Assembly (NCBI GenBank): GCA_947178215.1
Contig: CAMWXJ010000004.1
Coordinates: 62,001-126,000, forward strand
DNA from: an uncultured Porphyromonadaceae bacterium
GTDB taxonomy: Bacteria; Bacteroidota; Bacteroidia; Bacteroidales; Muribaculaceae
Length of the DNA stretch: 64,000 nucleotides
Reading direction: 5' to 3'
In this document: positions 4,166-16,449 of the stretch, piece after piece
Numbering within the stretch: position 1 is the first letter of the stretch
How the letters are laid out: each line of letters starts with the position of its first letter
Program-made: the position numbers and the translations under genes
Notes under the pieces: generated by a model
What the model was told of the DNA's origin: nothing
Seen by the model: the letters and a program-made list of their open reading frames with translations, nothing else
The model's database searches: none

Positions 4166-4633
4166 TTACTGGCGGCGGTTGCCGCGCTGACCGCCGCGCG
4201 TTTCGGTAAAGGGCTTGGCGTCTTCCGTCAGTTTGAGTTCAGTGCCGTTTGACAGCTCTATCTCGTAGCCGCCACGCTTGCGCGAAATCTCTACGATGTT
4301 CTGACCGGAATGGTTGGCGTCGACATATTTGGTTATGGCGGCGGGTATTATGGCGGCGGGCACGGCCTTACCCTTTGCGGCCTTGACCTCTTTCCAGTCG
4401 CCGTTGTCGCGGAAATCGACTTCGGCGCCGCTTGTCAGGTCGACTTCGTATTCGGCGCCGCGGCGGCCCTGCTCCTTTTCGGCTTTTCTCACATTGTCGC
4501 CGGGGAAATATTTGCTGAGAAATGTCTGGGCGGCCTTGGGCAGTTCAGACTGGCTTACGGGCGTTCCGGCAAACATAAGTGCCGAGAATGATGCTGCGAC
4601 AGCCACAAGCATCATGGTGATGATTCTTTTCAT
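4166..4633 (-). CDS. PepSY-like (DUF2874) secreted protein
   Basis: A 155-residue exported protein with a signal peptide (MKRIITMMLVAVAASFSALMF, cleavage near the AGT at 22-24). Two related PepSY-like repeats follow, each ending in a xYEVDLxxGxEVDF type strand: residues about 30-80 (AEYEVDLTSGAEVDF) and 85-140 (GYEIELSNGTELKL). The C-terminus is arginine/glycine-rich (RGGQRGNRRQ). Members of this family are periplasmic and often sit beside two-component systems; the biochemical role is not known. Its ATG overlaps the stop of the LytTR regulator in ATGA, so it is the third gene of a coupled kinase-regulator-PepSY cassette. It may act as a periplasmic modulator of the kinase, which is inference. 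Confidence 0.85.
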   Translation of the reverse strand: MKRIITMMLVAVAASFSALMFAGTPVSQSELPKAAQTFLSKYFPGDNVRKAEKEQGRRGAEYEVDLTSGAEVDFRDNGDWKEVKAAKGKAVPAAIIPAAITKYVDANHSGQNIVEISRKRGGYEIELSNGTELKLTEDAKPFTETRGGQRGNRRQ

Positions 4634-5346
4634 TTGCTGATATTGTGTTGTTTGAAGTGTTTGTAGAAATTGTTGAAAGCATCGGAATATGTTCGGCCAA
4701 CGGGGATAAGCCTGTCATAGTTTTTAAGAAATATCTTCCTGCTGGAGAATTTCTCAATCGCATACAGAGCCACGATAAAAGAGCGGTGTACACGGATAAA
4801 GCGGTCGGTGGGAAGCATCGACTCCATTTCTTTCATGGTAATCTGAGATATTACCGTAGGCTGGCCATGCCTGAACACTTTGACGTAATTGTCCATGGCC
4901 TCGACGTATGAGATATCGTCCACGTCGACCACCACTGTCTTGTATTCCACTTTGAGGGTTATCGTGTCGCGTCGCCCGGTCAGGCCGTCCCGGGCGCAGA
5001 CAAGCACCATGGCTTTCTGCATCGCATGCTGAAAGCGGGGATAGAACACTGGCTTATGGAGGAAGTCGACCGCGTCGACATTGAAGCCGTCGAGCGCGTA
5101 TTGAGAATAAGCGGTAGTGAAGATTATGCAGGTGCCCTCGGGTATGCTCTTGGCAAGCTCCACACCGTTGTGCGAGTTCATCTCTATGTCGAGAAATACT
5201 ATGTCGGGCGATGTGACGTGGATACACGCCATACCCTCAACCGGAGAAGTGAAACACTGCAGCTCAATATCTCCGTAACGTTTGCAGTACTCCTCTATTA
5301 TGCTAAGTGCGATTGGTTCGTCGTCTATTGCAACACATTTAATCAT
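4630..5346 (-). CDS. LytTR-family response regulator
   Basis: A 238-residue regulator. The receiver domain is at residues 1-120, with the acidic pair DDE at 8-10, phosphoacceptor Asp53 in IVFLDIEMN, and Lys in FLHKPV. A LytTR DNA-binding domain fills about 137-235: YVEAMDNYVKVF, the 'MKEME..LPTDRFIRVHRSFIV' segment, and the terminal LKNYDRLIPVGRTYSDAF. It is encoded between its sensor kinase (4-base overlap upstream) and the PepSY-like protein (4-base overlap downstream). The divergent TonB/DUF4374/PepSY operon at 6794 is a plausible target, and direct repeats at 4001-4032 are a possible site. Confidence 0.93.
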   Translation of the reverse strand: MIKCVAIDDEPIALSIIEEYCKRYGDIELQCFTSPVEGMACIHVTSPDIVFLDIEMNSHNGVELAKSIPEGTCIIFTTAYSQYALDGFNVDAVDFLHKPVFYPRFQHAMQKAMVLVCARDGLTGRRDTITLKVEYKTVVVDVDDISYVEAMDNYVKVFRHGQPTVISQITMKEMESMLPTDRFIRVHRSFIVALYAIEKFSSRKIFLKNYDRLIPVGRTYSDAFNNFYKHFKQHNISK

Positions 5347-6356
5347 TGGTTCAGCTGTATTTGGAGCGATACATTGTACATGTCGCTATCACTATGGATT
5401 GTCAGTTCATATTTTCCCGGATAGAGCAGTTCAAGGCGCTTGCGGCAGTTTTGTACGCCTGTGTGTTCGCCTAATCTTTTTGCGGGGAATATCTTGTTTG
5501 AGGTTGTAAACAGGAGGTTGCCTCCCTTTTCCGAAAGGCCGATTCGGATAACGCTCTTCTGGACCGGCGACACTCCGTGCTTGAAACAGTTTTCGACAAA
5601 TGTCACCAGAAGCATTGGCGGAATCATGAAGGCGCCGTGGCTCACGTCGATGTCGAGAGCCACCGTCGTCATCCCGTTAAGCCGTAGCGACTGCACCTCC
5701 ACATACTTCCTGATATACTCAGCTTCATCCGGCAAGGGCACCAGGTCACGATTGGAAGAGGTGTGGATATATCTCATCATCGAAATGAATTTTTCGAGCG
5801 AGGGAAGCGCATGCTTACTCCCTGTCAGAAAAAGCCCATAGAGCGAATTGAGCGTATTGAACATGAAATGCGGCTTTATCTGAGCCTTATACAGCTCAAT
5901 CTCCGCCTTATCTCTTTCGGCCTCGGCGGCTCTCAGCCGGGCCTTCTGGATGTCGGTGTGAACAAGCAGACCAACCGCGAAGCTAAACGCCTCCACTATC
6001 ATGAACAGCGACCATAGCACCTGCTGATACTGCTGTATGTGGGGCAGCAACCTCACTATACCGGCATCGTGTACGTTTGGCTTGGGCTCATACAGCTCCA
6101 CGCCCGAAAGAATGAATGTCACTATTACCGACACCAGTATCATCATCGCTCCAGCCACCTTGCGGTTAGGGCTTCCGAACAGAAACGGGATAGTAAAGGC
6201 GCGGTTGACGACGTAGACTAAGTAGAGCCACGCTCCGGCAAGAACCACATAGGCCGTAAAATAGTGTACCCACCTCTCGACGGGCGACAACACCGCCATT
6301 ATCGGCAGAACGATAAGGCAGAACGTAAGGTCTATGTAGAGCGCGATATGTTTCAT
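5343..6356 (-). CDS. LytS-type sensor histidine kinase
   Basis: A 337-residue membrane kinase. Four hydrophobic segments at about 4-24, 33-51, 68-87 and 114-133 form the sensor. A short coiled coil (LRAAEAERDKAEIELYKAQ) leads to the His_kinase domain with phosphoacceptor His163 in KPHFMFNTLNSLY. The N box is FVENCFKHG near residue 250, and a late GVQNCRKRLELLYPG segment matches this family. There is no large periplasmic domain, so the signal is probably membrane-borne or from a partner such as the PepSY-like protein. The stop overlaps the regulator's start as ATGA. Confidence 0.92.
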   Translation of the reverse strand: MKHIALYIDLTFCLIVLPIMAVLSPVERWVHYFTAYVVLAGAWLYLVYVVNRAFTIPFLFGSPNRKVAGAMMILVSVIVTFILSGVELYEPKPNVHDAGIVRLLPHIQQYQQVLWSLFMIVEAFSFAVGLLVHTDIQKARLRAAEAERDKAEIELYKAQIKPHFMFNTLNSLYGLFLTGSKHALPSLEKFISMMRYIHTSSNRDLVPLPDEAEYIRKYVEVQSLRLNGMTTVALDIDVSHGAFMIPPMLLVTFVENCFKHGVSPVQKSVIRIGLSEKGGNLLFTTSNKIFPAKRLGEHTGVQNCRKRLELLYPGKYELTIHSDSDMYNVSLQIQLNQ

Positions 6357-6552
6357 TTACTACGGGCACTGCGAGGTCAACCTGTTCAGCATCAAGAAAG
6401 TTGCGGCGGCATTTCAGTCAATCTCCAACGCGTTGCTGTCGGTCACTCGAAATTATGACAGATATTATGCGTCAAGGTTTAATGCAATGAATCTGTCGTT
6501 TATCCACATCCCGCAGGAGAGTTTTGTCGACTTTCGCAAGGCAAAAGCCTGA
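6340..6552 (+). pseudogene. Open frame resembling the C-terminal remnant of a lost gene
   Basis: In the gap between the kinase and the TonB receptor, a plus-strand frame is open for 70 codons from 6340 to the TGA at 6550-6552. It has no plausible start near its beginning. The translation (for example YYGHCEVNLFSIKKVAAAF, then NALLSVTRNYDRYYASRF, then FIHIPQESFVDFRKAKA) has the residue mix of a real soluble protein, and it overlaps the kinase start only slightly. I do not recognise the family. It reads like the tail of a gene truncated when the kinase cassette arrived, but a chance frame cannot be excluded. Confidence 0.35.
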
Positions 6553-6666
6553 TATACAGTCTCGCTGTGATTTTGGCGTGCTTATGTGATTATTTAAAAT
6601 AAAGGAATGAAGCGCGAAAAGCTTTATCCATTCACCACCACAAATATGCGTTTCGCCAATTTGTTT

Positions 6667-6701
6667 ATGTCGCAATGTCGCCTAAATGCCAGATATATGC
6701 C
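6667..6701. repeat. Short repeated boxes upstream of the TonB receptor promoter
   Basis: ATGTCGC occurs at 6667-6673 and 6675-6681, and ATGCC at 6686-6690 and 6697-6701, spaced 8, 11 and 11 bases. The boxes lie about 55-90 bases upstream of the proposed -7 element of the TonB-receptor operon, where an activator would bind. No known operator is matched. The rest of the 437-base gap (6357-6793) contains the remnant frame, this array and the promoter. Confidence 0.3.
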
Positions 6702-6732
6702 GAGTTCCGACAACTATACTCAAATTTAGGTA

Positions 6733-6763
6733 TTTTAAGAAAATGGCAAAACGCCGACCTTTG
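6733..6763 (+). promoter_or_regulatory. Probable promoter of the TonB receptor operon
   Basis: GACCTTTG at 6756-6763 is one base off TAnnTTTG, with TTTT at 6733-6736, 19 bases upstream, as a degenerate -33 box. Transcription would start near 6770, giving a leader of about 24 bases. The imperfect boxes fit a regulated promoter. Confidence 0.4.
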
Positions 6764-6793
6764 CACGGAATTTAAGATTAATATTACAAAATA

Positions 6794-9172
6794 ATGGCCT
6801 CGTTCAAGCAATATATTCTGACAATAATGGTGATGTGCCTGATGTCGTCCAACATATCCGCAAGAGAACTTACCGGCATGATTTCCGGTAAAGTGCTTTC
6901 ATCGGAGGGCGAACCGATAGATTTCGCAAATGTATATCTGAAAGGCACCACTTATTCAGGTACAACAAACGACAAAGGGCTATACCACATCAACGCTCCG
7001 GCAGGCGACTATACGATTGTGTTCTCATCGGTAGGATTTGAGATGCTGGAATTGAAAACGACCATAAAGGCCGACGAGCGCGTGAAGCTCAATGTAAAGT
7101 TGAAGTCGGCCACGCAGCTGGCTGAGGTGATTGTGGTGGGCAATACGCTCAGTAAGGTCAAGAACTCCGCTTTCAACGCCACTGCTGTCGACACCAAAGA
7201 ACTGGTCAACACCACAAAGACCCTCAGCGAAGCACTGTCGAAGGCACCGGGCATGAAAATCCGCGAGAGCGGAGGTGTCGGCTCGGATATGGCCGTGACA
7301 ATGGACGGCTTCAGCGGTAAGCACGTAAAGGTGTTTATCGACGGCGTGCCCCAGGAGGGGGTAGGCAGCTCCTTCGGCATCAACAACATCCCGGTAAATT
7401 TCGCTGACCGCATCGAGGTGTATCGCGGAGTGGTACCGGTAGGATTCGGCTCCGACGCGATTGGCGGCGTGATTAATATAGTCACTCCTAAGCGGCAGCG
7501 CCGCTGGTTTCTCGACGCATCATACTCATACGGCTCTTTTAACACTCACAAGACTTACGTCAATTTCGGCCAGACACTCGCAAACGGCTTCAAGTATGAG
7601 ATAAACGCATTTCAGAACTATTCCGACAACGACTACTGGGTCGACTCGCCGGTCGAGGATTTCGCCACCGGCGGAATCAACCGTAAAAAGCTCGAACATG
7701 TGCGCCGCTTCAATGACACCTACCACAATGAAGCCGTTGTGGCCAAACTGGGCTTCGTGAACAAGCCTTGGGCCGACCGCCTTATCGGCGGATTCACCTA
7801 CTCGCACATGTATAAGGAGATGCAGACGGGTGTAAGACAGGAGATTGTCTACGGTCAGAAACACCGTCACGGCCACTCGCTTATCGGAGCATTGGAATAC
7901 GGCAAACGCAATCTGTTCACCCAAGGGCTCGACGTGGCGCTAACGGGCAACTACAACCGCAACATCACCATTAACGTCGACACAGCCACCGTGAAATACA
8001 ACTGGCGCGGCGAGACTGACCGCCTTAATTCGCCCGGCGAACAGTCGTATCAGAACTCGCGGGCCAACAACAACAACTGGTCCACTACATTCACGGCCAA
8101 TTACCGCCTCAGCGACAGCCATCATTTCACGGTCAACGACGTATTCAACTCGTTCAACCGTTCAAACGACGATCTGCTTGCCGCAACCGTGAGCAGCGAA
8201 GAGATAGGCAAGATTACAAGCAAGAACATCGTGGGCGTATCGTACCGCTATATACCCAACACCAAGTTCAATCTTACCGCGTTCGGCAAACAGTATCACC
8301 AGTATGTGTCGGGCCCGGCAGCAACGACTGCCGCTCAGGACACCTACGTTAAAAGCACACGCTCCGTCGACGCTTTCGGCTACGGAGCGGCCGGCACATG
8401 GTTCATGCCTCTCGGCCTCCAGATGAAAGCTTCGTACGAAAAGGCCTACCGTCTGCCCACAATCGAGGAGATGTTCGGCGATGAGGACCTTGAAGTAGGC
8501 GACATGTCTCTCAAGCCGGAATCGAGTCACAACATAAACCTCAACCTAAGCTACAACAATGCTTTCGGCAACAACATAATATACGTGGAGGCCGGATTCA
8601 TCTACCGCGATACGAGAGACTACATTCAGCGCAACATACTAGCCCTGAGCGGAGGCAAGTCGGCCGCCACATACGTCAACTACGGCAAGGTCGATACCAA
8701 GGGCATCAGCGTGTCGGCACGCTACAACTTCTCGAAGTGGCTGAGCGTGGGCGGCAACTTCACCCAGATGAACGTACGCGACAACATGAAGACCGCCATG
8801 GGAAGCACTGTGGCCAATGTGGCCTACCGCGAACGCATGCCCAACCAGCCCTATATGTTCGCTGACTCCGACATCAACTTCTACTGGCACGGCCTGGGAG
8901 AAAAACGCAATGTACTCACCGTGACCTACGACAACCAGTACACCCACAAGTTCTGCTATTACGCATCCAACATAGGCTCGAACAATGACGACTACATGGT
9001 GCCCGACCAGTTCTCGCACAACCTCACAATATCCTACGGCATCAAAAACGGCAGATACAACCTATCGTTGGAGTGCCGCAACTTCACCAACGAGCGGCTG
9101 TACGACAACTTCAGCCTCCAAAAGGCCGGACGCGCATTCTACGGCAAGGTAAGAATCAATTTCGGCAACTGA
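6794..9172 (+). CDS. xusA: TonB-dependent outer-membrane receptor (XusA-like)
   Basis: A 792-residue receptor with a signal peptide at residues 1-24. A carboxypeptidase-regulatory-like beta domain follows at about 26-110 (GKVLSSEGEPIDFANVYLKGT, then GTTNDKGLYHI). The plug domain is at about 130-230 (SEALSKAPGMKIRESGGVGSD, then RIEVYRGVVPVGFGSDAIGGVINIVT), and the beta barrel runs to the C-terminal ...YGKVRINFGN. The size fits siderophore/haem-type receptors and not the larger SusC transporters, and no SusD follows. The next two genes (DUF4374 lipoprotein and PepSY membrane protein) give the order of the XusABC xenosiderophore-uptake operon described in Bacteroides thetaiotaomicron. Energy would come from an ExbBD-TonB complex, one copy of which is at 54.4-56.3 kb. 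Confidence 0.85.
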   Translation: MASFKQYILTIMVMCLMSSNISARELTGMISGKVLSSEGEPIDFANVYLKGTTYSGTTNDKGLYHINAPAGDYTIVFSSVGFEMLELKTTIKADERVKLNVKLKSATQLAEVIVVGNTLSKVKNSAFNATAVDTKELVNTTKTLSEALSKAPGMKIRESGGVGSDMAVTMDGFSGKHVKVFIDGVPQEGVGSSFGINNIPVNFADRIEVYRGVVPVGFGSDAIGGVINIVTPKRQRRWFLDASYSYGSFNTHKTYVNFGQTLANGFKYEINAFQNYSDNDYWVDSPVEDFATGGINRKKLEHVRRFNDTYHNEAVVAKLGFVNKPWADRLIGGFTYSHMYKEMQTGVRQEIVYGQKHRHGHSLIGALEYGKRNLFTQGLDVALTGNYNRNITINVDTATVKYNWRGETDRLNSPGEQSYQNSRANNNNWSTTFTANYRLSDSHHFTVNDVFNSFNRSNDDLLAATVSSEEIGKITSKNIVGVSYRYIPNTKFNLTAFGKQYHQYVSGPAATTAAQDTYVKSTRSVDAFGYGAAGTWFMPLGLQMKASYEKAYRLPTIEEMFGDEDLEVGDMSLKPESSHNINLNLSYNNAFGNNIIYVEAGFIYRDTRDYIQRNILALSGGKSAATYVNYGKVDTKGISVSARYNFSKWLSVGGNFTQMNVRDNMKTAMGSTVANVAYRERMPNQPYMFADSDINFYWHGLGEKRNVLTVTYDNQYTHKFCYYASNIGSNNDDYMVPDQFSHNLTISYGIKNGRYNLSLECRNFTNERLYDNFSLQKAGRAFYGKVRINFGN

Positions 9173-9199
9173 CACAATAAAACAACTACAATAACAGCA

Positions 9200-10594
9200 A
9201 TGAAAAAAACATTTCTCTTTGGCGTAATGGCAGCCGCTCTGGCCGTTCCTGCGCTTACATCATGCTCCGACTCCGACGAGCCCAACAAAGGGGAAGAGCC
9301 CGAAGGCACCAACGGCAAATTCGTATTTGCCACGACTGTACAGGGTTCCAACGCGACATCTTACGTGCTGCTCACCGGCGATTCGCTTGACGAGGGCACA
9401 CTGTCGCCGGTCAACAACGGCCTGCTCAACGACGGCGCCACACAGTGGGTGTTTCACAAAAACTATCTCTATGCCCTCACCTACAATCAGGGCAACGCCG
9501 GCACCACACGCAGCTACATCCTCGGCGCTAACGGCGAAATGGAGGCCCGCGGCACGGAATACCGCATAAGCCGTTTCTCATCCTACGGCGCCTACGACAA
9601 TGACATTCTCACAATGGCGACTGGAGAGTCGGCCGACGTAATAGACGGCAACGGCTATCACGCCATGATGCTCAACGTTACCTACCTCGACGTGGTGAAC
9701 GAGACAGCCACGACCAACAACGTAACAGCCGAGCACCCCTATCTCCTGGAAAATTTCCTCGGCAACGGCGAATATGTCACCCTCGCCGGCGCCGAACAGA
9801 GCGGCTCGCATCTCTATTGCGGCGCGATACCAATGGGCCTGAGCCAGTATGGCGCAGCCTACGACAACGGCAAGTGGATCCGTGAGGGCTTCGAGCATCT
9901 TGTACACGACGAGGCCGGCGGCTCAGGTGCAGGCTCGTATAAAGCAGGCGAACTCGTGGGCACGCAATATCCCGACGAATGTTGGGTCGCTATTTACGAC
10001 AACGACGATTTCCTCAATCCTACTCTCGTGAAGACCGACCGCATCAGCAGCCCGACGGGCCGATTTAGGTCGCAGTATTATCAGACGATATGGGCTGCCG
10101 AGAACGGCGATATTTACGTGTTCTCACCCTCCTATGCCAAGACCATGACCGACCCGCTCCAAAAGACGAAGCTCAACGCCGGCGTGTGCCGCATTCCGGC
10201 CGGAAGCAAGCAGTTCGACGACTATTACTGCGACATCGAGTCGCAGGCCGGCGGCAAGTCGTTCATGCGTTGCTGGCCCGCAGGCGGCAACTATTTCCTC
10301 ATGGTGATGTACGACCGTCCGCTCACCGAAAGCGGCTTTGCCGGCACCGACCTCGCTATCTTCGACGCGGCATCAAAAAAGCTGACCTATGTCACCGGTC
10401 TGCCCTCCGACATTTCGTCAATCGGCAAAACCGCATATAATCAGAACGGCAACGTGTATATCCCCATCAATGTCGAAAACGGCTATCCGACAATCTACAG
10501 CATTGACACCGCAACGGCGCGCGCAACCAAAGGCGTAGTCATCGAAGGCGCTTCCGACATCACCGGCTTCGGATTCATGGAACCCGCAGAATAA
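9200..10594 (+). CDS. xusB: DUF4374 surface lipoprotein (XusB-like)
   Basis: A 464-residue lipoprotein: MKKTFLFGVMAAALAVPALT then Cys22 (lipobox ALTSC), followed by an acidic SDSDEPNKGEEPEG linker. That acidic start after the Cys fits export to the outer surface in Bacteroidetes. The body matches DUF4374 (beta-propeller-like: TSYVLLTGDSLDEG, GVCRIPAGSKQFDDYY, and the terminal ASDITGFGFMEPAE). In B. thetaiotaomicron a protein of this family, XusB, binds ferric siderophore at the cell surface and works with the TonB receptor. It lies 27 bases after the receptor and 9 bases before the PepSY membrane protein. Binding of a particular siderophore cannot be read from sequence. Confidence 0.82.
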   Translation: MKKTFLFGVMAAALAVPALTSCSDSDEPNKGEEPEGTNGKFVFATTVQGSNATSYVLLTGDSLDEGTLSPVNNGLLNDGATQWVFHKNYLYALTYNQGNAGTTRSYILGANGEMEARGTEYRISRFSSYGAYDNDILTMATGESADVIDGNGYHAMMLNVTYLDVVNETATTNNVTAEHPYLLENFLGNGEYVTLAGAEQSGSHLYCGAIPMGLSQYGAAYDNGKWIREGFEHLVHDEAGGSGAGSYKAGELVGTQYPDECWVAIYDNDDFLNPTLVKTDRISSPTGRFRSQYYQTIWAAENGDIYVFSPSYAKTMTDPLQKTKLNAGVCRIPAGSKQFDDYYCDIESQAGGKSFMRCWPAGGNYFLMVMYDRPLTESGFAGTDLAIFDAASKKLTYVTGLPSDISSIGKTAYNQNGNVYIPINVENGYPTIYSIDTATARATKGVVIEGASDITGFGFMEPAE

Positions 10595-10603
10595 TTACAC
10601 GTC

Positions 10604-11875
10604 ATGAAGATATTCCGCAAACTTCATCTCTGGCTTTCCGTACCTTTCGGAATAATCATCACACTGGTATGCTTCTCAGGCGCGATGCTCATCTTCGAGC
10701 CTGAAATAACCCGGAGCGCCAAAAGCGACGTCTACTATGTCAGCTCAGCCGACGGCGATCCTCTCCCGTTGGGAGAGCTTATGGAGACAGTTAAGGCCAC
10801 GCTGCCCGATTCAGTCTCAATCACCGGCGTGACGGTGTTTGCCGACAAAAACCGCACCTACCAGGTAAATCTCTCCAAGCCCCGCAGAGCATCGCTATTT
10901 ATCGACCAGTACACCGGCAAGATTACCGGCAGATATGAGCGCATTGGCTTCTTCTCGAAGATGTTCGGGCTTCACCGCTGGCTTCTCGACAGCGCCAACC
11001 CGCACGGAGACGGTGTAAAGGTAGGCAAACTTCTCGTGGGCATTTCAACCCTCATATTCGTAATTGCACTTATTACCGGTGTAGTAATATGGTGGCCCCG
11101 CGCAAAGGTGAATTTCCGTCACAGCATGGCCATAACATTCAAGGACGGCTGGCGCGGACTATGGAAAAGCCTGCACGTGGCCGGAGGCATGTATGCGCTG
11201 GTATTTGTACTTGCCATGTCGTTGACCGGCCTCACATGGTCGTTCAACTGGTACCGCACGGCATTCTACGCAGTATGCGGCGTAGAGCACACTCCTCGCA
11301 ACTTCGGCGCCCAGACAAATGCAAAAGCGTCTGAAAACGGTGGCGATCGGGGCGAAGGCCGTGGCAATCGCGGCGAAGGTCGTCGCGGAGAAGGTCGCGG
11401 AGAAGGACGCGGAGAAGGTCGTCGCGGAGAAGGACGCGGAGAAGGACGTGGCGAAGGTCGCGGAGAAGGACGCGGCGAGGGTCGCCGTAATCATTCCGAG
11501 TTCGGCCGCTGGCAGCAGGTATATGATGAGCTGAAGGCACAGAACCCCGACGCCCCGCAGATTACCATCGCCCCCGAAACCGCTTCTGTCACCTTAGGCA
11601 CCACCGGCAACGGACGCGCCACCGACAAATATGAGTTCAACCGCAGGTCGGGCGAAGTAACTCCCGCCACAAAATATGCCGACTCAGTGCCGGCCGACAA
11701 GCTCCGAGGCTGGATATATGCAGTACATACCGGCACCTGGGGCGGACTCCTGACAAGAATCCTGTGGCTACTCGGCGCACTGCTCGGCGCGTCGCTCCCG
11801 CTCACCGGCTACTACATCTGGATAAAGCACCTGCTGAGAAAGAAACACCGCGGCCACACAGCCGCCACGCATTAA
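10604..11875 (+). CDS. xusC: PepSY-associated transmembrane protein, putative ferric reductase (XusC-like)
   Basis: A 423-residue inner-membrane protein with hydrophobic segments near residues 11-32, 145-165, 197-218 and 388-410. PepSY-type regions lie between TM1 and TM2 and in the second large loop, with conserved LRKLHLWLS-like start (FRKLHLWLSVPFG) and MFGLHRWLL and SLHVAGGMYAL histidine motifs near the membrane. This architecture is shared with XusC and other PepSY membrane proteins thought to reduce siderophore iron. Residues about 246-296 are an unusual low-complexity run of RGEG units, in the loop after TM3. It is the last gene of the operon and is followed by two hairpins. Confidence 0.82.
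   Translation: MKIFRKLHLWLSVPFGIIITLVCFSGAMLIFEPEITRSAKSDVYYVSSADGDPLPLGELMETVKATLPDSVSITGVTVFADKNRTYQVNLSKPRRASLFIDQYTGKITGRYERIGFFSKMFGLHRWLLDSANPHGDGVKVGKLLVGISTLIFVIALITGVVIWWPRAKVNFRHSMAITFKDGWRGLWKSLHVAGGMYALVFVLAMSLTGLTWSFNWYRTAFYAVCGVEHTPRNFGAQTNAKASENGGDRGEGRGNRGEGRRGEGRGEGRGEGRRGEGRGEGRGEGRGEGRGEGRRNHSEFGRWQQVYDELKAQNPDAPQITIAPETASVTLGTTGNGRATDKYEFNRRSGEVTPATKYADSVPADKLRGWIYAVHTGTWGGLLTRILWLLGALLGASLPLTGYYIWIKHLLRKKHRGHTAATH
11340..11492 (+). repeat. Coding minisatellite encoding RGEG repeats
   Basis: About 150 bases made of near-identical 12-base units of the type CGCGGAGAAGGA (Arg-Gly-Glu-Gly), some separated by one extra arginine codon. All units are multiples of three bases, so gain or loss would keep the frame and change loop length in the XusC-like protein. 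Confidence 0.85.
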
Positions 11876-13399: not shown

Positions 13400-14755
13400 A
13401 TGGCCAAGACAACACAATTTGCCTCAAAACTGGGGCTCATAGCGGCGACAGTAGGCTCGGCGGTAGGGCTGGGAAACGTGTGGCGTTTTCCGGCCGAGAC
13501 GCAGGCCAATGGCGGCGCCGCGTTTCTCATCATCTATATCGCCTGTGTGTTTCTGCTCGGCGTTCCGGTAATGGTGGCCGAGTTTGCCCTCGGACGCGCC
13601 GGTCGCAGCGACGCTGTCGGCAGCTTCAAGAACCTCGGCGCCCGCAAGCCGTGGTGGGCCGTAGGCGCTCTGGCGATACTTGCGAGCTACATGATACTCT
13701 GCTTCTATATGGTAGTAGCGGGCTGGACATTCGAGTACCTGGCGGCATCGCTCAGCGGTTCGCTCTACGAGGGATGCTCTACTGCTTCCACCGGCTATTT
13801 CACGGCCAAGATGAACGAGATGACAGGTGAGCCGGGCGGCGTGCTCGTCAACACCTATATCGTGATAGTGCTCAACATAGCAGTGCTGATGCTCGGCGTG
13901 CAGAAGGGCATCGAGCGGCTGAGCAACATCATGATGCCGCTGCTTTTCATCATCCTGCTCATTCTATGCGGCGTGAGCCTCACTCTGCCAGGAGCGGGCG
14001 AGGGACTTGAATTTTTCCTGAAACCCGACTTCTCCAAGGTCACGTCGGACACTGTGCTCAACGCGCTCGGCCAGGCGTTTTTCTCGCTGAGCCTCGGTAT
14101 GGGCATCCTCATCACCTACGCAAGCTATTTTCCGCGCTCCACCAAGCTCACCCGCACGGCTGTAACAGTGTCGATGCTCGACCTGCTTGTAGCTATCCTC
14201 ATGGGCTTCATCATCTTCCCTGCCGTGACCTCGTTTGGTCTCACCGACGAGTCGCTCCGGGGCTCGACACTGGTGTTTGTCACCCTGCCGGAGGTGTTTG
14301 CGCTGATGCCCGCCACACAGGTGTGGTCGGTGCTCTTCTTCCTGCTGCTCTTTGTGGCGGCACTCACCTCCACCATATCCATCGCGGAGGTGTCGGTGGC
14401 TTTCGTGTCCGACCGCTTCTCGACATCGCGCGTCACCGCGACACTCATCGTGCTGCTGCCAATCTTCGGCCTGGCTTCACTATGCGCGATGTCGCAGGCT
14501 CCCGACACCACTCTCACCATAGGCTCGGTGACGGTGTTTGAATTCCTCGACGACACCGCCACCAACATACTGCTCCCCGTAGTGGCTTTCTTCACCTGCA
14601 TTTATGTGGGCTGGTTTGCGCCGCCAAAGCTGCTTTACAGAGAGGTGAGCAACCGTGGCTCAATGGCCGTGCATACCCATGGCCTCATACTATTCATCCT
14701 GCGCTTCATCGCTCCGCTGCTCACGGCGGTGATACTCATAAGCCGATTCATCTGA
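13400..14755 (+). CDS. Neurotransmitter:sodium symporter (SNF/NSS) family transporter, copy 1
   Basis: A 451-residue sodium-coupled transporter, probably for an amino acid or related amine. The N-terminus carries the NSS signature ATVGSAVGLGNVWRFPAETQANGG (TM1, sodium and substrate site). About 11-12 hydrophobic segments follow, including the ALGQAFFSLSLGMGILITYASY segment of TM6 and LLFVAALTSTISIAEV of TM8. The length is that of LeuT/TnaT-type bacterial members. Substrate cannot be assigned from sequence. It shares an operon with a small membrane protein (6 bases downstream) and a second NSS paralogue. Confidence 0.9.
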   Translation: MAKTTQFASKLGLIAATVGSAVGLGNVWRFPAETQANGGAAFLIIYIACVFLLGVPVMVAEFALGRAGRSDAVGSFKNLGARKPWWAVGALAILASYMILCFYMVVAGWTFEYLAASLSGSLYEGCSTASTGYFTAKMNEMTGEPGGVLVNTYIVIVLNIAVLMLGVQKGIERLSNIMMPLLFIILLILCGVSLTLPGAGEGLEFFLKPDFSKVTSDTVLNALGQAFFSLSLGMGILITYASYFPRSTKLTRTAVTVSMLDLLVAILMGFIIFPAVTSFGLTDESLRGSTLVFVTLPEVFALMPATQVWSVLFFLLLFVAALTSTISIAEVSVAFVSDRFSTSRVTATLIVLLPIFGLASLCAMSQAPDTTLTIGSVTVFEFLDDTATNILLPVVAFFTCIYVGWFAPPKLLYREVSNRGSMAVHTHGLILFILRFIAPLLTAVILISRFI

Positions 14756-14761
14756 CCTGAC

Positions 14762-15097
14762 ATGGGCCTACGACTGCCGCAAGGCGCACCGACAGCCATA
14801 GAGCGACGCGCCATCATTGCCGTATGCGCCACGGTGGTCATAGCCGTGGGTGCCATAGCGTGGTGGCGAGGCCACCTTGCCCCGCCGGCATCCACCGCCG
14901 CCTCACAGCGTGTAGTGGCCGAAGAGATACGGGCGATGCAGCAGGCCGACTCGCTCCGCGAAGCACAAAACGACTCTATTAAGCGCGAGCGGCGCACCCG
15001 CAAGCGCACAAAACGCGCCGCCGTACAGGCTGCACCCACAGCCACGCCACGCAACATTCTCGACGAATCAATTCCATCCAATACCGAAAGCAAATGA
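14762..15097 (+). CDS. Small single-pass membrane protein with basic coiled-coil tail
   Basis: A 111-residue protein I do not recognise. A short N-terminal tail leads to one hydrophobic segment at about 17-36 (AIIAVCATVVIAVGAIAWW). An alanine/proline linker and a charged helix (VVAEEIRAMQQADSLREAQ, then KRERRTRKRTKRA) rich in basic residues follow. It starts 6 bases after symporter 1 and its stop overlaps the start of symporter 2 in ATGA. This tight placement suggests production in step with both transporters, perhaps as an accessory subunit; that is inference. Confidence 0.6.
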   Translation: MGLRLPQGAPTAIERRAIIAVCATVVIAVGAIAWWRGHLAPPASTAASQRVVAEEIRAMQQADSLREAQNDSIKRERRTRKRTKRAAVQAAPTATPRNILDESIPSNTESK

Positions 15098-16449
15098 CAC
15101 CACAACCCGGTAAACGCGACCTGTTCACGACACGCTTCGGAGCCATAGCCACAACGGTAGGCTCGGCCGTGGGCCTCGGCAACATCTGGCGCTTCCCCTA
15201 CGAGGCCGGCACCAACGGCGGCGGAGCGTTCATGCTCTGCTATATCGTGTTTATATTTCTGCTCGGCGTACCCGTGATATGCGCCGAGTTCACCCTCGGA
15301 CGCAGTTCGCGCTCCAACTACTTCGGCGCCATGCGCCACCACTCCCGGAGCCGGTTCTGGCCGTTGGCCGGATATATCGGCATCCTCGCCTCACTCATGA
15401 TTCTCAGCTTCTACTCCGTGGTGGCCGGATGGACCGTGGAATACACCGTGCAGAGCGCCACCGGCGCGCTTGATTTCAGCGACACCGGCTCGTATCACGA
15501 CCATTTCGACACTTTCGTGACAGGCAACTGGCGACCCGCCATGTGGACGCTCATCTTCCTCGCCCTCAACTTCGGCATACTCATGCGTGGCGTAAGCAAG
15601 GGTATAGAGCGCTTTTCCAACATACTTATGCCGGTGCTCTTCCTGCTGCTGATAGTGTTCTGCATCAACTCCCTCACCATGGATGGTGCCCGTGAGGGCC
15701 TGACTTTCCTTTTCCGCCCCGACTTCGCGGCTCTCACCCCCGCTACGATGCTGTCGGCGCTCGGTCAGGCGTTTTTCTCGCTTAGCCTCGGCCTCGGCTG
15801 CATGCTCACCTATTCCAGCTACTTCTCCACGGGCACACGCCTCGGGCGCTCGGCCCTCACCACCGCCATGCTCGATACAGTAGTTGCCCTACTCGCCGGC
15901 GTAATCATATTCCCCGCGGTGTTTACCTACGGCATGTCGCCGTCGGCAGGCCCAACGCTCGTGTTTGAGGTGCTTCCGTCTATCTTCCACCACCTCCCCG
16001 GCGGAGTGGTATGGTCGACATTCTTCTTCTTCCTTCTGTTCCTGGCATCGCTCACCTCCACCATATCCATGAGCGAAATATCAATAGCGTTCTTCACCGA
16101 GCAGCTAAAAATACGGCGCAAATCGGCGGTTATACTCAACACGGCCATAGCCGCAGTGTTCGGCACTCTGTGCGCCCTCTCGTTCGGCTGCCTCGACGAC
16201 CTCAGACTGTTCGGTATGACGATATTCAACCTCTTCGACTACACCACGAGCAACATAATGCTTCCGTTTGGCGGCATGATAATATCGCTGTTTGTGGGCT
16301 GGCGATTGAAGCGCAGCGTCCTTGTCGAAGAGATGACCTGCTACGGCACCACCCCTTTCCGCGTCATGGGGCTGCTGATATTTCTCCTTCGCTGGGTATG
16401 CCCCCTTGGCATCGCCCTCATATTCCTCAATTCAATAGGCATCATCTGA
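15094..16449 (+). CDS. Neurotransmitter:sodium symporter (SNF/NSS) family transporter, copy 2
   Basis: A 451-residue paralogue of the gene at 13400, of the same length. TM1 carries TTVGSAVGLGNIWRFPYEAGTNGG; ALGQAFFSLSLGLGCMLTYSSY and LLFLASLTSTISMSEISIAF mirror copy 1. The two differ in the extracellular loop after TM3 and in TM10-11, where a shift in substrate would show. The start is fixed by the ATGA overlap with the small membrane protein. It is the last gene of the operon and is followed by hairpins. Confidence 0.9.
   Translation: MTPQPGKRDLFTTRFGAIATTVGSAVGLGNIWRFPYEAGTNGGGAFMLCYIVFIFLLGVPVICAEFTLGRSSRSNYFGAMRHHSRSRFWPLAGYIGILASLMILSFYSVVAGWTVEYTVQSATGALDFSDTGSYHDHFDTFVTGNWRPAMWTLIFLALNFGILMRGVSKGIERFSNILMPVLFLLLIVFCINSLTMDGAREGLTFLFRPDFAALTPATMLSALGQAFFSLSLGLGCMLTYSSYFSTGTRLGRSALTTAMLDTVVALLAGVIIFPAVFTYGMSPSAGPTLVFEVLPSIFHHLPGGVVWSTFFFFLLFLASLTSTISMSEISIAFFTEQLKIRRKSAVILNTAIAAVFGTLCALSFGCLDDLRLFGMTIFNLFDYTTSNIMLPFGGMIISLFVGWRLKRSVLVEEMTCYGTTPFRVMGLLIFLLRWVCPLGIALIFLNSIGII

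Follow-up and report, generated by a model that had tools for sequence, protein, structure and literature searches.

The stretch of DNA analyzed here (the window) spans 64,000 nucleotides of contig CAMWXJ010000004.1 from an uncultured bacterium of the family Muribaculaceae, and it carries a histidine kinase gene and a LytTR response regulator gene that diverge from an operon of the XusABC siderophore uptake type. Comparison with related genomes makes it quite probable that in Muribaculaceae this kinase-regulator pair serves as a local regulator dedicated to the divergent XusABC-type operon, and that it derives from the regulator of an efflux pump of the resistance-nodulation-division (RND) type, the RND gene having been lost in the window's lineage. 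The narrower claim, that the pair controls Xus, is very likely to be correct, because the two are linked in eight genus labels, a predicted operator is found at the linked and not at the scanned unlinked promoters, and this operator is retained where Xus has moved or the RND gene is absent. Control of a siderophore-iron uptake operon by the pair had been proposed in an initial annotation of the window, and linkage, operator pattern and operator retention now lend it indirect support. That annotation also described a kinase-regulator-PepSY-like cassette joined by two ATGA overlaps and separated by 437 bp from a divergent Xus-type operon. The open reading frames, overlaps, gap and Pfam matches (taken at E 0.01) agree with this layout: the overlaps can be read directly in the sequence at 4630-4633 (PepSY-like gene/regulator) and 5343-5346 (regulator/kinase), and the gap from kinase to receptor occupies 6357-6793.

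Linkage of the kinase-regulator pair to Xus

The survey covered 297 genomes of the family. DUF4374 was present in 41 of them (E 1e-20), and a kinase profile matched 25 loci, distributed over 24 genomes, with scores of at least 512 bits (next match 348). DUF4374 is carried by 21 of the 24 kinase-bearing genomes, when 3.3 would be expected (hypergeometric P = 5e-18, uncorrected for relatedness), and these 21 genomes span eight genus labels. Such a survey had been suggested in the initial annotation, and rather than occurring mostly without a neighboring DUF4374/PepSY operon, the kinase faces a Xus operon directly at 20 of the 25 loci. Elsewhere, about 8 kb separate the Xus operon of L092 from its kinase (L049 and L092 being one locus), the contig of L036 ends inside the RND gene, and L112, L113 and L114 are kinase loci in genomes without DUF4374. 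The 41 DUF4374 genomes comprise 21 with a kinase orthologue, 19 without and one that is unplaceable (G155, with Xus and the PepSY-like gene on separate contig ends and no kinase found). At L092 (7099-14828) the cassette and Xus are separated by a SusCD-like pair, one more gene for an exported protein and another kinase-regulator pair belonging to the same superfamily.

The window's pair has the parts of a two-component system, namely a PF06580 kinase with a phospho-accepting histidine and a LytTR regulator with an aspartate. The catalytic motifs of the kinase are intact (H163, N-box ENCFKHG), and the kinase is under purifying selection (ratio of nonsynonymous to synonymous substitution rates, dN/dS, 0.05-0.10 against close relatives, at saturated dS). 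The regulator combines a receiver with a LytTR DNA-binding domain; D8, D9, D53 and K98 are invariant across 9 aligned rows, and its match to the NCBIfam BtsR model (97.5 bits) is well under the cut-off of 246. The naming of the kinase as LytS holds for its catalytic domain and does not extend to the sensor: the 5TMR-LYT sensor domain, typical of LytS proper, was not among its Pfam matches at the threshold used, PF06580 being the sole family reported, and the kinase is thus LytS-like in the catalytic domain only. Its periplasmic part had been called minimal, which fits the sequence and a weak AlphaFold model (mean predicted local distance difference test score, pLDDT, 69.6; below 50 in the loop), with about four membrane helices and a short periplasmic loop of about 25 residues near residues 85-112. 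On a midpoint-rooted FastTree tree, read without support values, the Xus-linked kinases form one clade, with the Xus-less L112-L114 inside it as well. The loop of this clade reads LYxPKPNxHDxGIVRxxPxxxQYQQ and is unlike the loops of efflux-linked kinases.

A predicted operator at the linked promoters

Footprinting yielded a tandem repeat, gTTnGCCA-N13-gTTnGcCA, with a period of 21 bp. The predicted operator of the window has a leave-one-out score of 34.6, compared with 3.6 and 6.2 for the best of 60 shuffles in the two regions tested, and the pattern TTYRCCA-N14-TTYRCCA occurs once in the 2.55-Mb draft genome, at this very site; a reversed control pattern also has one hit in that genome. Under leave-one-locus-out scoring, the operator was found upstream of the receptor at 14.6 or higher in 19 of 21 linked loci. 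L092 keeps both of its copies, at 19.9 before the kinase and at 33.5 before the distant receptor. None of the 17 unlinked Xus loci scanned within the family had an operator at the receptor (best score 9.5); 13 of them are firm and L082, L083, L091 and L096 doubtful (uncertain start or truncated), while L074, L093, L094 and L095 were left out of the scan for want of a receptor start. Likewise, no operator was found at 17 Xus loci outside the family (best 7.1), including those of G404, G503 and G585, which have an efflux-linked system elsewhere, and the kinase-regulator pair was not found in the stretches fetched around these 17 loci.

Sixteen loci have both the operator and a second conserved element, ATACY-N8-GGTATT, which begins 84-89 bp downstream of where the operator does. 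The GGTATT of this element stands exactly 31 bp before TTTGC, presumably a -7 promoter box, in 18 of 21 linked promoters, 5 of 17 unlinked family promoters and, beyond the family, 1 of 17 (L148). In its strict form this palindrome occurs once in the window's genome, at the Xus promoter, and all six hits in six genomes (one counted on both strands) also fall at Xus promoters, with none in G183 and 1 hit for the control. A role as a general iron box was rejected, given this confinement of strict hits to Xus promoters. Judged by its distribution, the second element is independent of the two-component system, and a second input on the Xus promoter is likely.

The Xus operon and the layout of the locus

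The receptor matches the solved chain 9gbc_A, a TonB-linked outer membrane receptor, with 1035.7 bits over residues 24-791, and the DUF4374 lipoprotein matches 9gar, the XusB of B. viscericola (PMC13142918, in part), with 341.3 bits and co-linearly across residues 35-460. By these matches, the operon is of XusABC type with a long-form DUF4374 protein. Bacteroides thetaiotaomicron chains match the same lipoprotein in two blocks of swapped order. Its lipobox LTSC, followed by SDSDE, was read by eye. The pages of PMC13142918 on XusB associate forms with a hook with catecholate siderophores. Only 9 bp separate the DUF4374 gene from the XusC-like gene, which has the same orientation. The Gly/Glu/Arg tandem-repeat insert of the XusC-like protein lies at 11340-11485, and eight relatives examined have a Gly/Arg-rich insert of varying length in the same region.

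Table 1. Genes and predicted regulatory elements of the cassette and the facing Xus operon (window coordinates)
Feature	Position	Strand	Evidence
PepSY-like exported protein (PF11396/DUF2874), 155 aa	4166..4633	-	PF11396 90.2 bits (cut-off 28.3)
LytTR response regulator	4630..5346	-	Pfam LytTR 72.4 bits, Response_reg 54.3 bits
LytS-type histidine kinase	5343..6356	-	His_kinase PF06580 69.6 bits
Probable relic of relatives' kinase/RND promoter region	6452..6499	.	Local alignment
Predicted LytTR operator, ATTCACCA-N13-TTTCGCCA, repeats 21 bp apart	6630..6658	+	Footprinting and matrix
Second conserved promoter element ATACT-N8-GGTATT	6716..6734	+	Conservation at Xus promoters
Probable -7 promoter box gaccTTTGC of the Xus operon	6756..6764	+	Fixed TTTGC spacing
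XusA-like TonB-dependent receptor	6794..9172	+	CarbopepD_reg_2, Plug, TonB_dep_Rec_b-barrel
XusB-like DUF4374 lipoprotein, 464 aa, long form	9200..10594	+	DUF4374 548.7 bits
XusC-like PepSY_TM membrane protein with Gly/Glu/Arg repeat insert	10604..11875	+	PepSY_TM (PF03929) 211.6 bits

Beyond the Xus operon, two adjacent, similar, multi-helix transporter-like reading frames of 451 aa each, with a short reading frame between them, occupy 13400-16449; by eye they look like sodium-symporter paralogues.

The PepSY-like exported protein

The third gene of the cassette encodes an exported protein (signal peptide judged by eye) that fits the profile and fold of solved PF11396 members. Its AlphaFold model has a mean pLDDT of 83.5, and the nearest solved structure is 3db7 (BT0923; 38% identity, TM score 0.85 by target). 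PF11396 alone was listed for it at E 0.01, and PF03413 (PepSY) was not matched. The initial annotation had stressed PepSY modules on both sides of the promoter region, an argument that weakens here, since the two sides belong to different families (PF11396 versus PF03929/PF03413) and the likeness is partly one of a shared name only.

Across the family genomes, the PepSY-like profile gave 27 matches at 181 bits or more (next 137.3), two of which (L052, L057) lie at contig ends and are uninformative on neighbors. Of the 21 linked loci, 19 have the gene behind the regulator; none of the three Xus-less kinase loci does. The gene is absent from L088 and L090, where kinase, regulator and Xus are intact, and at L089 it is cut by the contig end. 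Five genomes without a kinase orthologue or DUF4374 have it solo (L040, L046, L050, L051, L056), and L055 has it together with a decayed kinase and regulator. On a midpoint-rooted FastTree tree with neither outgroup nor support values, the solo copies are scattered among the linked ones, several on long branches, which suggests that they are orphaned rather than ancestral and that constraint was relaxed once they were uncoupled. By this distribution the gene is tied to the circuit, and its product is the customary partner of the pair, yet one that can be dispensed with. At L044 (4290-8237) and L045 (5219-9173), genes that lie downstream of the PepSY-like gene and on its strand look by eye like an outer membrane factor (OMF), an HlyD-type adaptor and a major facilitator superfamily (MFS) pump.

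Whether the protein modulates the kinase is about even on this comparative evidence. The initial annotation had cast it as a periplasmic sensor or brake for the kinase. A more specific proposal along that line, which we entertain tentatively, is that it would be the true sensor or brake, binding the kinase loop and being titrated away by a periplasmic ligand. Translational coupling behind the regulator and the presence of the gene at most Xus-linked kinases and at none of the three Xus-less ones would follow from such a role, and BT0923 is given as 5.04-fold in the iron-limitation table of PMC10434189 (seen in part); nevertheless, L088 and L090 manage without the protein, and no PepSY-like gene was found near the ten efflux-linked relatives from other families described below. 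The five kinases that lack a PepSY-like partner deviate more at conserved loop and transmembrane helix 2-3 positions (P = 0.03 and 0.004, uncorrected for relatedness or for the number of regions tested), but they deviate in the kinase domain too (P = 0.05), and kinase/PepSY-like coevolution is thus suggestive only. Somewhat less plausible still is that the PepSY-like protein is a regulated client, such as an envelope factor working with the Xus proteins, and not a regulator of the kinase. Its solo occurrence away from any kinase orthologue or DUF4374 would suit a client, as would the proposal, in the portion of PMC2954215 that describes the DUF2874 fold, that DUF2874 proteins are inhibitors of other periplasmic proteins, whereas the scatter of those solo copies and the long branches of several of them point to relaxed constraint outside the circuit.

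Kinship with efflux regulators

Neither the apparent descent from an RND-efflux regulator nor the RND gene that usually separates kinase and receptor is visible from the window sequence alone. An RND permease gene lies between the two, on the receptor strand, in 13 of the 20 directly linked loci, and the kinase/RND gap contains an operator (at least 17.2) in all 15 loci with an RND gene there. An order-wide kinase search of 393 genomes gave 14 further full-length hits at 248-303 bits (next below 180). Ten of these loci (L098, L099, L101, L102, L104-L109) face an operon of the MFP-RND-OMF type (membrane fusion protein, MFP, and OMF assigned by eye; L107 is cut at the contig edge), L100 and L103 are on short contigs, and L110 and L111 face other genes. 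Five efflux-type kinase relatives inside the family also face an RND operon. The ten efflux-linked relatives in other families are 36-42% identical to the window in the kinase and 43-49% in the regulator. With a matrix trained on Muribaculaceae sites alone, 8 of these ten loci scored at least 14 upstream of the kinase, and repeats are visible in the remaining two (L106, 9.7; L108, 13.0). Selected loci totaling 1.4 million positions yielded 11 hits at this level. Ten of the hits precede a kinase of this kind; 8 belong to efflux loci, and L100 and L103 are on contigs too short to show a pump. The orphan-type L117 has an operator (20.7) and L116 has none. Given similar sites before kinase relatives that face MFP-RND-OMF operons, the kinase-regulator system appears to descend from an RND-efflux regulator re-targeted to Xus, and we infer that descent ran from efflux to Xus.

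The RND matches in the window's genome (48 contigs, 96% complete) are no more than 53% identical to the relatives' RND gene; the gene was therefore probably lost rather than displaced, and its mere relocation within this genome was rejected. Positions 6452-6499 align locally to L044 (score 42) and L034 (score 35), with 0 of 300 shuffles as high for either, and more weakly to the other four relatives (1, 6, 16 and 21 of 300 shuffles as high). A 64-aa frame at 6358-6552 (+) was rejected as a gene remnant, having no Pfam match and no second copy in the genome; part of this stretch instead resembles the relatives' kinase/RND promoter. Loss of the RND gene appears to have followed at least two routes. 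The operator of L053 and L054 lies 74-77 bp from the kinase start, like that of RND-type loci (54-75 bp in 14 of 15; 217 in L047), and the receptor thus seems to have taken over the RND promoter. The window, L032, L042, L088 and L090 have kept the receptor's own promoter and operator. At L114 (6521-9634) the RND gene is in two frames and at L041 (12169-15274) in two overlapping pieces, which suggests decay or sequencing error.

The recurrent RND gene also admits an unlikely scheme, in which Xus would import a foreign ferric siderophore, the PepSY membrane protein would free the iron and the RND permease would expel the empty siderophore. The kinase and the PepSY-like protein, as a periplasmic gauge, would then read siderophore traffic and not iron, and the window's genome would have dropped the pump and kept the gauge. 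We give little credence to the reading that the system is still a regulator of envelope stress or of bile or drug efflux, with Xus a passenger downstream of its old RND target. The relatives facing RND operons (ten in other families, five within) and the RND gene still standing in 13 of 20 loci are compatible with it, and RND pumps of B. thetaiotaomicron respond to bile (PMC11078008, PMC10994844; both in part). A passenger, however, would hardly account for the receptor operator that RND-type loci possess in addition to the operator at the RND gene (14.6 or higher in 11 of 13, with L089 at 9.0 besides), nor for the seven of 20 linked loci that lack the RND gene and all retain the operator before the receptor; the kinase loop differs from that of efflux-linked kinases, and only 3 of 24 kinase-bearing genomes are without Xus. 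Binding of the repeats by another LytTR regulator or another protein, with linkage reflecting hitchhiking on a mobile or clustered locus, is very improbable: the operator comes from footprinting only, and of the 32 hits in a pattern scan of 24 genomes for a wider regulon, 17 fall at the kinase or the receptor and the other 15 are scattered (the reversed pattern gives 6), but the motif accompanies the kinase-regulator clade across family boundaries, was not seen upstream of seven other kinase paralogues (L110, L111, L121-L124, L126), and the window's draft genome contains only two PF06580 kinases.

The proposed circuit

In the circuit that we favor, the kinase would sense a periplasmic or membrane signal and phosphorylate the LytTR regulator, which would then bind the 21-bp-spaced repeats and activate the xusA promoter; activation is preferred over repression with moderate confidence. 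The PepSY-like protein would most likely modulate the kinase in the periplasm without being essential to the circuit. The ancestor would have regulated an MFP-RND-OMF efflux pump, since kinase, regulator and operator type are held in common with such loci. The system would have gained the PepSY-like gene and, at the xusA promoter, a second operator, and its periplasmic loop would have become a different one; the window's lineage would afterwards have lost the RND gene.

Several observations weigh against a dedicated Xus regulator of efflux descent. L112 and L113 keep kinase and regulator with no Xus, RND or PepSY-like gene nearby, and L114 has the RND gene only. Kinase orthologues are missing from 19 of the 41 DUF4374 genomes, so Xus does not need the kinase. 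The distances of kinase and receptor correlate weakly (r = 0.25), as opposed to 0.72 within the kinase-regulator pair and 0.83 between receptor and DUF4374 protein (0.46 between regulator and PepSY-like protein), and thus the Xus cargo may have been exchanged more than its controller. At the receptor, L048 has no operator and L089 a weak one (9.0). Among the five efflux-type relatives in the family, only L119 reaches 14 (24.5), L118 and L120 score 12.8 and 7.0, and L115 and L125 give no matrix hit. The kinase's own promoter region looks decayed in the window's genome. From the operator to the -7 box downstream of it is a distance of about 100 bp, which is long for a simple activator, and another regulator is suggested by the second conserved element.

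Gut commensals use Xus to steal the siderophores of pathogens. A candidate regulator can now be named for it in one large family of gut bacteria, together with an operator predicted at single-base resolution and a probable evolutionary origin. The system is also a clear candidate for a two-component system that switched targets, from efflux pump to uptake system, through operator gain and sensor-loop change. Natural comparisons are offered by loci with and without the RND gene, by loci with and without the PepSY-like gene, and by one with Xus away from the regulator.

Relation to known systems

A literature search of open-licence papers found no regulator of Xus and no role for a cassette of this kind. 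BtsSR and YpdAB are LytS/LytTR systems with short membrane sensors, a PF06580 kinase, a LytTR regulator, a direct-repeat operator and a local target; the window differs from them in its distinct signal loop, its PepSY-like third gene and its iron-piracy target. The MFP-RND-OMF loci of other Bacteroidales families share with the window the divergent LytS/LytTR pair and the operator type, but have a different kinase loop and neither Xus nor a PepSY-like gene nearby. PfeRS-pfeA of Pseudomonas aeruginosa, a two-component system beside the enterobactin receptor, works like the window's layout in adjoining a siderophore receptor; it is OmpR-type and is not known to include DUF4374 or a PepSY-like gene. 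The regulator of HaeSR in Porphyromonas gingivalis is likewise OmpR-like.

The XusABC system of B. thetaiotaomicron and its homologues have the TonB receptor, DUF4374 lipoprotein and PepSY membrane protein in common with the window, and the sections of PMC13142918 that treat them name no regulator, whereas the window has a divergent kinase-regulator pair. HaeSR resembles the window in placing two-component control of heme/iron uptake near a DUF2874 protein, in its case PG0717, a lipoprotein with four DUF2874 domains (PMC3764172). It differs in its 50 kDa kinase and 25 kDa regulator, the latter not described as LytTR in the excerpts of PMC3764172, where Xus is uninvolved and the DUF2874 gene is not described as a modulator. 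At L142 (3198-8286), outside Muribaculaceae, a PepSY-like gene of 38% identity and another gene for an exported protein adjoin a kinase-regulator pair that appears to be a different one. They lie some 2 kb upstream of a Xus receptor, an arrangement that recalls the DUF2874/HaeSR neighborhood. Within the published account consulted (PMC3764172, in part), HaeSR with PG0717 is the nearest precedent for a two-component system together with DUF2874 in heme control.

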